From the NCBI GenBank assembly GCA_027064585.1, contig JAMOPI010000028.1, positions 1 to 64,000 of the forward strand: a stretch of 64,000 bases of DNA. Reading direction: 5' to 3'. The position numbers were made by a program, and so were the translations under genes. Source of the stretch: Candidatus Desulfofervidaceae bacterium. Its GTDB lineage: Bacteria; Desulfobacterota; Desulfofervidia; Desulfofervidales; Desulfofervidaceae. Positions 34,471 to 45,005 of the stretch are shown here, one piece after another. How positions within the stretch are numbered: position 1 is the first letter of the stretch; every line of letters starts with the position of its first letter. The notes below the pieces were generated by a model. The model was not told where the DNA came from. It ran no database searches and was given only the letters and a program-made list of their open reading frames with translations.

Positions 34471-35448
34471 ATGATTAAGGAGATTTTTATTGGCTTTTCT
34501 GCTCACCGTTTAGAAACCATTCCTTTTTATGAAAAACTCTTTGCTAAAAGCGACATCATTATTTTAGAAGATGCCCCACATCCCTTATTTCCTTCTTTAC
34601 TTTTAGGTCAGTTAACCCCTGAACAATATGTCCAAAGCCTTGAGACAGACTTTCCACGCTTTCTCACGGCCCAATATAAGCTGCTGCAAGCAGTCTATAA
34701 AAAAGGAAAAAAGATTGTCCAAATAGACCCCTATATAGAAAGGCTCTTGCAAATGTATCAGCTTTTAGAAGAGGGAAAAACTCCTGAAGAGATAAGCCAA
34801 CTTTCTCTTTATCAAGAGATATATGCCTGTGAACATGAAGCCAGTGGGAGATTGTTGGACTATTATCAGGCAACAATGGGAGAATTTGAAGGGGCAATAA
34901 AAGCCGTGCAAGTCTTTGCCCAGGCCGATGCCAAACGGATTGCCTTACGGGATAAAATGCGGGCCCAGAGCATTGCCAGCTATTTAGAAAACAAAGCTGG
35001 ACGTGTGTTTGTTGAAGCAGGTTATATCCATCTTTTCTTAAGTAGGTACCTGCGGCAGGCACTTCCCTCTGAATGGCAAATCAAGGCAGGCTACCTCTTG
35101 GCCAAACCGGCTAGAGAAATTTCGCAGCAAGTGCTTGGCATGCCTTTGCCCCATCCCTTTGTGCCTGGGGATATTTTAACCTTTTGGTATATAGGAGGCA
35201 AAAAGGTCAATCCGCAAAGGGCAAATCTTTTAGCTGCCCGGGTCCTGATCTATAACAAACTTATATCTACAGAAGAATTAGAGCCAACCAAAGAGAATCC
35301 CTTTCCTCACCTTTTACAGGAATTCAAGATCAAGGCCATGCTTAGACGTCTCTCCTATGATGACTGCGCTAGATTATACGAACTAGTAAAAGTTTTACCT
35401 CCAGCCAGGGTATGGCAGTTAGTGGAAAGAATAAGTACTACAACTTGA
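34471..35448 (+). CDS. Uncharacterised protein, possible TraB/ChaN-like fold
   Basis: A 325-residue cytosolic-looking protein I do not recognise with certainty. Features: N-terminal FIGFSAHRLETIPFYEKLF and IIILEDAPHPLFPSLL, a long helical middle, then RDKMRAQSIASYLENKAGRVFVEAGYIHLFLSRYL, which resembles the R-x-x-M and V-G-x-x-H segments of TraB/TIKI/ChaN-type domains. The C-terminal 100 residues are helical and charged. No signal peptide or membrane span. The ribosome-binding site is weak. It lies between the NSS transporter pair and glyQS. Confidence 0.5.
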   Translation: MIKEIFIGFSAHRLETIPFYEKLFAKSDIIILEDAPHPLFPSLLLGQLTPEQYVQSLETDFPRFLTAQYKLLQAVYKKGKKIVQIDPYIERLLQMYQLLEEGKTPEEISQLSLYQEIYACEHEASGRLLDYYQATMGEFEGAIKAVQVFAQADAKRIALRDKMRAQSIASYLENKAGRVFVEAGYIHLFLSRYLRQALPSEWQIKAGYLLAKPAREISQQVLGMPLPHPFVPGDILTFWYIGGKKVNPQRANLLAARVLIYNKLISTEELEPTKENPFPHLLQEFKIKAMLRRLSYDDCARLYELVKVLPPARVWQLVERISTTT

Positions 35449-35522
35449 ATTGTTAATACCTGTAGCATAAGGTGTTTCTGCACATACTTTAAGTCCTGGT
35501 CAATCTTTATTCCTTTTTCTTT

Positions 35523-35544
35523 TTATGGCATTATATTGCCATAA
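35523..35544. promoter_or_regulatory. Inverted-repeat operator candidate, copy 1
   Basis: TTATGGCA-6-TGCCATAA: perfect 8-base arms separated by six bases. A second copy follows with centre 32 bases away, about three DNA turns, so both sites would face the same side of the helix. Lies upstream of the predicted glyQ promoter. Confidence 0.6.
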
Positions 35545-35554
35545 AATTTGAAAT

Positions 35555-35576
35555 TTATGGCAGGGCATTGCCATAG
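35555..35576. promoter_or_regulatory. Inverted-repeat operator candidate, copy 2
   Basis: TTATGGCA-6-TGCCATAG: same arms as copy 1 except for the last base, but a different six-base spacer (GGGCAT against TTATAT), as expected of a conserved protein-binding site rather than a recent duplication. Ends 42 bases before the predicted glyQ -35. Confidence 0.6.
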
Positions 35577-35618
35577 AATTAGCCAAATTAAGATTTCAAA
35601 GCAGATACCTTCTCCCCG

Positions 35619-35647
35619 TTGACAACTCTTAAAGAGAATGTTAATTC
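35619..35647 (+). promoter_or_regulatory. Predicted glyQ promoter, leaderless-type
   Basis: TTGACA (35619-35624), 17 bases, TAATTC (35642-35647) with an upstream TG (35639-35640, extended -10). ATG 35655 follows after seven bases with no ribosome-binding site. The -10 match is weak, so this is the least certain of the four leaderless promoters. The same TTG could instead be an upstream start codon. Confidence 0.42.
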
Positions 35648-35654
35648 ACACCCC

Positions 35655-36524
35655 ATGTATTTCCAAGAAATAATCTTTGCCTTAGAAAGGTATTGGGCCG
35701 AGAAGGGATGCGTAATTGAACAGCCCTATGACATAGAAGTAGGGGCCGGCACCTTTCATCCTGCCACCTTTTTACGGGTCCTAGGCCCTGAACCTTGGCG
35801 GGTGGCCTATGTACAGCCTTCTCGCCGGCCTACTGATGGTCGCTACGGCCAAAATCCCAACCGCCTTCAACATTATTATCAATATCAGGTCATCTTAAAA
35901 CCCTCTCCCCTAGATGTGCAGGACTTATACCTGCACAGCCTTGAGGCCTTAGGGATTAATTTAAAGGTCCATGACATTCGCTTTGTAGAGGATGACTGGG
36001 AATCACCCACCCTCGGTGCCTGGGGATTGGGCTGGGAGGTGTGGCTGGATGGAATGGAGATTACCCAGTTTACCTATTTTCAACAGGTAGGAGGAATTGA
36101 CCTGGATCCTATCTCGGCCGAGATTACCTACGGCCTGGAACGCATTGCCATGTATCTGCAGGGCGTAAACAATGTCTTTGACATTCAGTGGGCTCCAGGC
36201 ATTACCTATGGCGATATCCACTTTCAGGCCGAGGTAGAGGGATGTAAGTTTAATTTTGAATTGGCCGATGTGCCGTTGTTATTAAGGCTCTTTGCCGACT
36301 TTGAAAGGGAAGGGGAGAAGTTACTTAAGGCCGGCGTGGTGGTACCGGGTTATGAATTTTGCCTTAAATGCTCGCACATCTTTAACTTATTAGACGCAAG
36401 GGGCGCTATTAGTGTTACCGAAAGGACGCAATACATTGCCCGGGTAAGGCGTCTGGCCCGAATGGCGGCAGAGGCCTATCTTAAACAAAGAGAAGAGTTG
36501 GGTTATCCATTATTAAAACGATGA
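35655..36524 (+). CDS. glyQ: Glycyl-tRNA synthetase alpha subunit
   Basis: The alpha (catalytic) subunit of the alpha2beta2 bacterial GlyRS that charges tRNA-Gly. Class II motifs: [80 protein letters not shown] and [15 protein letters not shown], all canonical. From ATG 35655 it is 289 residues, about the family length. An in-frame TTG at 35619 would add 12 residues; I favour 35655. Coupled to glyS by a four-base overlap. Confidence 0.95.
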
Positions 36525-39741: not shown

Positions 39742-40056
39742 ATGAAAATTTTGTATGATTTTCTTGATAGAAAAATACGCTTTACTGACGAAAGATGGCA
39801 ACATATTGAAGATACGCATCCTGAAATGCGAGATCAATTTGAGAAAATTAAAGAGACATTGTCAACTCCAGACATAGTTATACAATCCAAAACTGACCTG
39901 CAAGTTGAGTTATTTTTTAAAAAATACCTCAACACTCCAGTGAGTGAAAAATTTTTATGTGTAGTGGTGAAGTTTTTATCAAACGATGCTTTTATTATCA
40001 CGGCTTATTTTACAGATACTATCAAAAAAGGAGATATTTTATGGCAAAAGAGGTAA
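39742..40056 (+). CDS. Putative BECR-fold RNase toxin-like protein (PBECR/DUF4258-like)
   Basis: A 104-residue protein resembling the phage-type Barnase-EndoU-ColicinE5/D-RelE-like (BECR) nucleases. It shows RFTDERWQHIEDTHPEM (His21 and His26), a LSTPDIVIQS turn, and KFLCVVVKF-x-AFIITAYFTDTIKKG at the C-terminus, where a conserved T/Y pattern is expected. It is followed, with a 16-base overlap, by a DUF2283 gene, the usual antitoxin-like partner in such pairs. It sits inside the gcv operon, 17 bases after gcvT. Nuclease activity is inferred from family resemblance, not shown. Confidence 0.6.
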   Translation: MKILYDFLDRKIRFTDERWQHIEDTHPEMRDQFEKIKETLSTPDIVIQSKTDLQVELFFKKYLNTPVSEKFLCVVVKFLSNDAFIITAYFTDTIKKGDILWQKR

Positions 40057-40253
40057 TTATTTGGTATGACCAAGAAGGAGATTATTTAGAAGTTCTTTTT
40101 GAGAAAAAAGAAGGATATTTTCGTGAAACTGCAAACGATGCAATAATGGAGAAGGTAGATAAAGAGGGTAATGTTATAGGCTTTTCAATTTTAAAAGTGA
40201 GTGCCTTAAAAGATCGTAAGGCATTTTCTCTAATTCTAAAAAAGGCTGCTTAA
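40041..40253 (+). CDS. DUF2283 protein (antitoxin-like partner)
   Basis: A 70-residue protein with the DUF2283 pattern: VIIWYDQEGDYLEVLFEKKEG followed by ETANDAIMEKVDKEGNVIGFSILKVSAL. The family is found next to small BECR/RelE-like genes and is thought to act as their antitoxin. The true start is ATG 40041, with AAAGGAG (40028-40034) upstream; it overlaps the preceding gene by 16 bases, implying coupled translation. gcvH follows 28 bases later. Confidence 0.8.
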   Translation: MAKEVIIWYDQEGDYLEVLFEKKEGYFRETANDAIMEKVDKEGNVIGFSILKVSALKDRKAFSLILKKAA

Positions 40254-43751: not shown

Positions 43752-43779
43752 TTGACAAATTTAAAAAAAAGGCTATTTT
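43752..43779 (+). promoter_or_regulatory. Promoter of the AAA ATPase gene
   Basis: TTGACA (43752-43757) and TATTTT (43774-43779), 16-base spacer, upstream of a 10-base leader hairpin. Confidence 0.55.
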
Positions 43780-43790
43780 AGAGAAAAGGC

Positions 43791-43817
43791 TCACCAAAAT
43801 GATGCCTATTTTGGTGA
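43791..43817 (+). promoter_or_regulatory. Leader inverted repeat upstream of the AAA ATPase
   Basis: TCACCAAAAT (43791-43800) and ATTTTGGTGA (43808-43817) with a seven-base loop; lies 39 bases before the start codon, in the transcribed leader. Could be an operator or an mRNA structure limiting expression. Confidence 0.5.
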
Positions 43818-43856
43818 ACTCATTCACTAAAACAGGTAATTTTAGGTGGATATGGA

Positions 43857-45005
43857 ATGATCGTAGAAAGAACAATTTTTAAAAGAGTAGAGCAGTATCT
43901 TTTTAAGGGTAAGATAATTGCTATTTATGGAGCAAGACAGGTAGGGAAGACAACTCTTGTAAAAGAACTCATTAAAAATTTTCCTGAGGATGCTATTTAT
44001 TTAAATTGTGATGAGCCGGATGTTAGAGCTCTTTTAAGTAATAAAACTTCCACCGAGTTAAAGTTTATTTTAGGGAATAAAAAACTTGTGGTAATAGACG
44101 AGGCCCAAAGGGTAAAAGACATAGGCCTTACTTTAAAATTGATGGTAGACAACTTTCCAGAAAAGCAAATAGTAGTAACAGGCTCGTCCTCTTTTGACCT
44201 GACTGGCGAGATAGAGGAGCCTCTTACAGGAAGGAAAATAGACTTTATTCTTTTCCCTTTTTCTCTGGAAGAAATTTCCCAGATTCATTCCCCTTTAGAA
44301 ATAAAAAGACTTCTTCCGAGGTTTTTAGTTTTTGGAATGTATCCTGAAGTGGTGTTAAAACCTGAGCTTTCTCGGGAAATTTTAAGGTCAATTGCTTATA
44401 GCTATGCTTTTAAAGATATTTTTAAACTTTATCAAATAAGGAATCCAGAAGTTTTAGAAAAGCTTCTGCAGGCTCTTTCACTTCAGCTTGGAAACGAAGT
44501 TTCTTATAATGAGCTTGCAGGTTTAACCGGAGTTGATAAAAACACTGTTGCCAATTACTTACGCATACTTGAACAGGCTTTTATTATTTTTAAACTACCT
44601 CCTTTCAGCAGAAATCTCAGGAATGAGCTAAAAAAATTGAGAAAGGTGTTTTTTTACGATGTAGGGGTGAGAAATGCTTACATAAACACCTTTAATCCTA
44701 TTGAGCTGAGAGATGATGTGGGAAAACTCTGGGAAAATTTTGTGATAACCGAAAGAATGAAAATTCTTTATAACCATGGAATCTATACAAATTTCTATTT
44801 CTGGAGAAGAGCTAGAAAGGAAATAGATTTAATTGAAGAAAGAGAAGGAAAGCTTTATGCTTATGAGATAAAGTGGAAAAAAAGAAGGGTTAGACCACCT
44901 GAAGTTTTTAAAAGGGCCTATTCCAATTCGGAGTTTTTTGTAATTACTCAGGAAAATTTTCTTAAATTTTTAGCGGGTAGCGCAGAAATTTTTCGCACTG
45001 CGTAA
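43857..45005 (+). CDS. AAA-family ATPase with DUF4143 domain
   Basis: A 382-residue ATPase of the AAA_14/DUF4143 type, common in accessory regions of anaerobes and archaea; function not established. Walker A is GARQVGKTTLV (about residues 25-35), Walker B is KLVVIDEAQRV with the DEAQ, then a sensor region IVVTGSSSFDL. A winged-helix segment (LAGLTGVDKNTVANYLRILEQAFII) precedes the C-terminal DUF4143 nuclease-like domain FYFWRRARKEIDLIEERE-x-KLYAYEIKW, which retains an E-x-D/E-x-K-like pattern. Flanked by near-identical direct repeats, with its own promoter and leader hairpin. Confidence 0.82.
   Translation: MIVERTIFKRVEQYLFKGKIIAIYGARQVGKTTLVKELIKNFPEDAIYLNCDEPDVRALLSNKTSTELKFILGNKKLVVIDEAQRVKDIGLTLKLMVDNFPEKQIVVTGSSSFDLTGEIEEPLTGRKIDFILFPFSLEEISQIHSPLEIKRLLPRFLVFGMYPEVVLKPELSREILRSIAYSYAFKDIFKLYQIRNPEVLEKLLQALSLQLGNEVSYNELAGLTGVDKNTVANYLRILEQAFIIFKLPPFSRNLRNELKKLRKVFFYDVGVRNAYINTFNPIELRDDVGKLWENFVITERMKILYNHGIYTNFYFWRRARKEIDLIEEREGKLYAYEIKWKKRRVRPPEVFKRAYSNSEFFVITQENFLKFLAGSAEIFRTA

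Follow-up and report, generated by a model that had tools for sequence, protein, structure and literature searches.

ATPases that combine AAA_14 and DUF4143 domains (PF13173 + PF13635) are assigned by PADLOC to the candidate defence family PDC-S01. This family is reported to rank fourth in frequency among prokaryotic defence systems, most candidates of this sort still awaiting experimental validation (PMC12988326). A Thermus gene with "AAA 14, DUF4143, HTH motifs" appears in a table of expression changes (PMC4406477). No description of operators for the DUF4143/PDC-S01 family was found in the literature searched, itself incomplete. Mycobacterial IniR, a signal-transduction ATPase with an SSO1545-like domain and a DNA-binding domain, regulates a promoter and in this respect resembles the ATPase proposed here, from which it differs in having MalT-like and SdiA-like domains (PMC5760070). 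A word search of the IniR paper (PMC5760070) found no mention of palindromes or autoregulation. The archaeal AAA+ ATPases SSO1545 (2fna) and PABY2304 (2qen) are among the top structural matches for the model of the ATPase from the related genome G002, described below, although with only 12-15% identity and TM scores of about 0.4-0.5; no operator data were found for either. As for the sites themselves, the geometry of a 22-bp 8-N6-8 palindrome is that of CRP sites.

A tandem pair of palindromes with this geometry is present upstream of the glycyl-tRNA synthetase gene glyQ in the window, the whole stretch of 64,000 nucleotides analysed here (Table 1). The pair shares with tandem CRP-type operators the 22-bp length, the N6 geometry, and the helical phasing. 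However, its half-site is TTATGGCA rather than TGTGA, and it is a single pair in the genome, with no regulon. Its sequence can be aligned with the 5' end of an AAA_14-DUF4143 ATPase gene, and the same operator architecture recurs before relatives of that gene; the window differs in having only the control region and 12 codons. Our best explanation of the whole, which we consider likely, is that the pair represents the operators of a deleted PDC-S01 ATPase gene, formerly autoregulatory and now orphaned.

Table 1 Features of the window discussed in the text. Assignments as operators are predictions.
Feature	Position	Strand	Description
Operator 1	35523..35544	.	TTATGGCA-TTATAT-TGCCATAA; perfect 8-N6-8 palindrome, 0 mismatches
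Operator 2	35555..35576	.	TTATGGCA-GGGCAT-TGCCATAG; 1 mismatch; 32 bp after operator 1
Relic, 5' end of AAA_14-DUF4143 ATPase gene (operators and first codons)	35520..35608	+	Aligned to G002
Relic codons (12)	35573..35608	+	ATA GAA TTA GCC AAA TTA AGA TTT CAA AGC AGA TAC; from translation and alignment
glyQ promoter	35619..35647	+	TTGACA-17-TAATTC; conserved in relatives (window and L005-L007 upstreams)
glyQ (glycyl-tRNA synthetase alpha)	35655..36524	+	Pfam PF02091; ATG start, nearly leaderless
Intact AAA_14-DUF4143 ATPase (PDC-S01), sibling	43857..45005	+	PF13173 + PF13635; PADLOC PDC-S01 E=5e-150
Sibling operator 1	43777..43798	.	TTTAGAGA-AAAGGC-TCACCAAA
Sibling operator 2	43810..43831	.	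TTTGGTGA-ACTCAT-TCACTAAA; 33 bp after sibling operator 1

Form and rarity of the palindrome pair

Two palindromes with the same arms and differing spacers, 32 bp apart from start to start, had been picked out in the initial annotation and were found where it had placed them. The arms are palindromic at 8/8 and 7/8 positions, and the 27-nt units of the pair are 81% identical, with four of their five differences in the 6-nt spacer and one at the arm end. Of the sequences that were significant in the tandem-palindrome test, this pair scores highest (30; p=0.0099, the lowest value attainable with 100 shuffles).

A scan of the whole 1.92-Mb genome returned no further copy of the 22-bp palindrome at up to one mismatch. 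Allowing up to two mismatches added one match, with exactly two mismatches and within a coding gene, and the shorter pattern ATGGCA-N6-TGCCAT at up to one mismatch added two, both likewise within coding genes. A genome-wide search for the 22-base pattern had been proposed as a check in the initial annotation, and no copy lies near other glycine, serine, or folate genes. Scanning 84,980 genomes for the tandem pair recovered nothing related, only a Parabacteroides tandem repeat and a LacI-type operator beside a LacI-family gene. Viral contigs contained 14 exact single palindromes, 0 of which had a tandem partner or an ATPase, and a search of published text with the letters of the arms returned unrelated papers only.

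Several known types of element were considered for the pair and rejected. A glycine regulon would have other sites in the genome and be conserved in relatives, and neither was found. For a CRP/FNR-type regulon, the remaining genome matches (those with two mismatches, or to the core) lie inside coding genes. The consensus spacing of sigma-54 promoters is GG-N10-GC; here GG and GC are 9 apart, and the spacing is off by one. No intrinsic terminator (a G+C stem followed by a T-run) was found at the site, and neither a riboswitch nor any other Rfam family. In dif/Xer sites the inner ends of the arms read ATAA/TTAT, which, as judged by eye, is the reverse of the window pair.

Alignment with an ATPase gene start upstream of glyQ

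When 59 related genomes were scanned for the palindrome at one mismatch, a non-coding match was obtained in G002, a genome from the same family that consists of one 2.54-Mb contig. There the palindrome is likewise doubled (TTATGGTATTGTATTGCCATAATTTTACATTTTATGGCATTTGATTGACATGGAATTATCCAGATTAAGATTTCAAAATAGATAC), and it lies at the start of an open reading frame for a 470-aa AAA_14-DUF4143 ATPase that PADLOC matches to PDC-S01 (E=3e-30). The counterpart of operator 1 in G002 is TTATGGTA-TTGTAT-TGCCATAA, and that of operator 2 is TTATGGCA-TTTGAT-TGACATGG, the ATG of which is the ATPase start. Positions 35520-35608 of the window and the G002 ATPase start are 80% identical over 89 bp. The blastn match scores 77 bits, with E 1e-13 when the database size is set to 1e8, and the local score is 84, whereas the best of 200 shuffles reaches 36. 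The match comprises more than the motif that was searched for, since 32 bp outside the palindromes align independently, with identity at 28/32. Read in the G002 frame, the 12 codons of the window stand opposite MELSRLRFQNRY in G002. The start codon is lost in the window, which has ATA in place of the G002 ATG, and the right arm of operator 2 overlaps its position.

The homology to G002 ends at 35608, and the glyQ promoter begins ten bases on. No intact ATPase gene follows the operators in the window, where glyQ comes next, and the genome contains no close homologue of the G002 ATPase (best match 28%); the element is therefore read as a relic rather than as a working member of the family. As to origin, the proposal that the palindromes are the orphaned control region of a deleted AAA_14-DUF4143 ATPase gene is well supported by sequence comparison, in which the relic is seen in one assembly and aligned at the DNA level with one homologue, that of G002. 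The ATPase gene, with its tandem operator pair, would once have stood between the gene for a 325-aa protein and glyQ. Subsequently, the gene body from about codon 13 would have been deleted and the start codon lost to mutation, so that the control region was left on its own before an independent glyQ promoter; the simplest history that we infer is a deletion with one end at codon 13 and the other just before glyQ. Orphan operators of this kind would be markers of sites at which such ATPase genes were lost.

The pair had initially been annotated as a possible control of the glyQ-gcv operon, and this reading did not survive comparison with relatives. The start assigned to glyQ by the open reading frame finder, TTG 35619, falls inside the -35 box; on the basis of the conserved promoter and of a similar, conserved 14-residue protein start in relatives, the true start would be ATG 35655. 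The promoter, about 40 bp downstream of operator 2, is retained in G001, G002, and G004 as TTGACA and (G/T)TAATTC with an ATG a few bases behind. Two phased sites with identical arms, located upstream of glyQ and with gcv genes downstream, could be a cooperative operator pair through which a glycine or folate regulator controls glyQS-gcv. However, the palindromes are missing upstream of glyQ in all four relatives from the same genus and family (G001-G004; loci L005-L008), three of which keep the promoter, no further sites lie near glycine genes, and the alignment with the ATPase start fully accounts for the element, so that regulation of this kind is very improbable. On present sequence evidence, glyQ is not the original target of the operators. 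The lesson for glyQ is a negative one, in that a striking operator pair before a housekeeping gene can be the debris of a neighbour.

The window arms come closer to a perfect palindrome than the G002 arms do, although the window gene is dead, which could reflect a recent loss or some retained use. Retained use would mean that another ATPase or regulator of the genome binds the relic operators and affects glyQ, so that the arms stayed perfect, and six DUF4143 genes do remain in this genome. This is unlikely, given that the operator half-sites of the paralogue in the window differ, that the motif has no other copy in the genome, and that the operator centres lie ~88 and ~120 bp upstream of the inferred glyQ transcription start. 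There is no sign that glyQ is under the control of the pair at present, and the cognate protein is absent from the genome.

Some other features of the neighbourhood are recorded here. The 325-aa protein (34471-35448) has no Pfam or NCBIfam match and occurs in a few relatives; its gene comes after an SNF-family transporter gene in G001 as well, although at a distance from glyQ there. A small open reading frame sits between the SNF-family transporter gene and the 325-aa gene. Two small overlapping open reading frames lie between gcvT and gcvH (39742-40253), one weakly PBECR2-nuclease-like (below the cut-off) and the other DUF2283, and they may represent a toxin-antitoxin-like element inserted into the gcv operon.

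Inverted repeats across the ATPase family

Palindromic sites often precede PDC-S01 genes and are commoner there than before other genes, a trait of the family that is found in several bacterial phyla. DUF4143 was detected in 84 of 148 genomes of the phylum. Together with earlier searches, the phylum genomes provided 129 upstream regions, which form 79 clusters at 60% protein identity, and inverted repeats within -90..+10 were taken as significant at a shuffle p<=0.05. Under this test, 34/79 (43%) of the ATPase upstreams have a significant inverted repeat, compared with 21/233 (9%) of control regions, the intergenic sequences that precede other genes at the retrieved loci (odds ratio 7.6, Fisher P=1.5e-10); more than half of the family members are thus without one. 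The proportion is 5% among 21 glyQ upstreams and 11% in the -280..-180 regions of the same genes. A detector for two palindromes at a distance of 31-34 bp gave a significant result for 14/38 genes with a long N-terminus like that of the G002 protein, for 18/112 other members, and for 14/233 controls, counts that are made per distinct protein rather than per cluster, with related genes entering more than once.

Members in two other genomes have the geometry of the window pair with other arm sequences, and in both the sites end at or beside the ATG. Those in G003, from the same family, are ATAGGATA-N6-TATCCTAA and TTAGGATA-N6-TAACCTAA, 33 bp apart; the ATPase open frame there is only ~110 codons, and this example gene may itself be broken. 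The sites in G005, from the same order, are TTTAGTTA-N6-TAACGAAA and TATGGTTA-N6-TAACCAAA, 32 bp apart, and TTGACC-16-TATAAT directly precedes the first of them. The window itself contains an intact sibling gene downstream of the gcv genes, preceded by two candidate operators (Table 1).

Of 14 plasmid-borne homologues from other groups, six are preceded by an inverted repeat with p<=0.05, namely, those of Treponema, Dinoroseobacter, Meiothermus, Mesorhizobium, Runella, and Moraxella. In the Treponema homologue there is, in addition, an almost exact 32-bp direct repeat, and the arms are 18 bp long in Runella and 21 bp in Moraxella. Perfect or near-perfect inverted repeats with arms of 13-21 bp cover the promoter or the start of DUF4143 ATPase genes at four loci (L252, on a Moraxella bovis plasmid; L248, on a Runella plasmid; L083; and L091). 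A clade of ATPases with the long N-terminus (L210-L213 and L220) has sites in common that resemble TAAGATCA-N6-TGATCTTA, and the spacing in L213 differs from 32 bp.

Predicted fold and proposed autoregulation

An AlphaFold2 model of the G002 ATPase was built from a 42-sequence alignment, with a mean pLDDT of 91.7 (38 for the single-sequence prediction). The model contains an ATPase core and helices at residues 273-285, 293-300, and 305-317, followed by strands at 321-329 and 335-345, and these helices with their two-stranded wing (321-345) are predicted to form a winged helix-turn-helix arrangement. Weak HTH Pfam hits in paralogues fall at the same place. The predicted domain, taken with the recurrence of the 8-N6-8 form at 31-34 bp, indirectly supports the initial annotation of the pair as phased operators for a dimeric DNA-binding protein.

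In the intact relatives, the palindromes are three helical turns apart and follow the -10 region but precede the start codon, as in G005. Such a position is typical of repressor sites, and negative autoregulation is therefore proposed. The ATPase's own predicted winged helix-turn-helix would bind the pair as two in-phase dimers, and the bound dimers would repress transcription of the ATPase gene. Judging from the operators and the structural model, the ATPase probably represses itself in this way.

The palindromes might also act in RNA, by forming hairpins that mask the start codon of the ATPase or define where the upstream transcript ends. Folding of the region is more stable than that of shuffled sequences (z -2.8), the ATG of G002 is within the right arm, and operator 2 overlaps the start codon position. 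However, the putative -35 box of several family members is covered by an arm or has an arm upstream of it, and such an arm would be untranscribed, which favours recognition of DNA rather than RNA. Further, the hairpins of the window have T-runs on the 5' side and A-runs on the 3' side, the reverse of a terminator, and the terminator scan and the comparison with Rfam families returned nothing at the site. Action in RNA is therefore quite unlikely, and binding of the ATPase to its operator DNA remains the preferred reading.

As a tentative generalization, PDC-S01-type ATPases may be self-repressing DNA-binding ATPases, each with its own palindromic operator and, in one clade, a phased pair separated by three turns. 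Were this true, an ATPase that came off its operator, as might happen when an invader is sensed, would induce its own production, and an operator found throughout the family would offer a handle on the control of PDC-S01 genes as well as a cheap binding test. In a Mantel test, recognition helices and operator arms co-vary at r=0.13 (p=0.05), but after correction for ATPase identity the relation is not significant (partial r=0.03, p=0.36) and is not separated from shared ancestry. The C-terminal part of the G002 ATPase contains the nearly invariant residues E405, D407, E421, and K423, which, in our reading of the motif, are reminiscent of PD-(D/E)XK nucleases.
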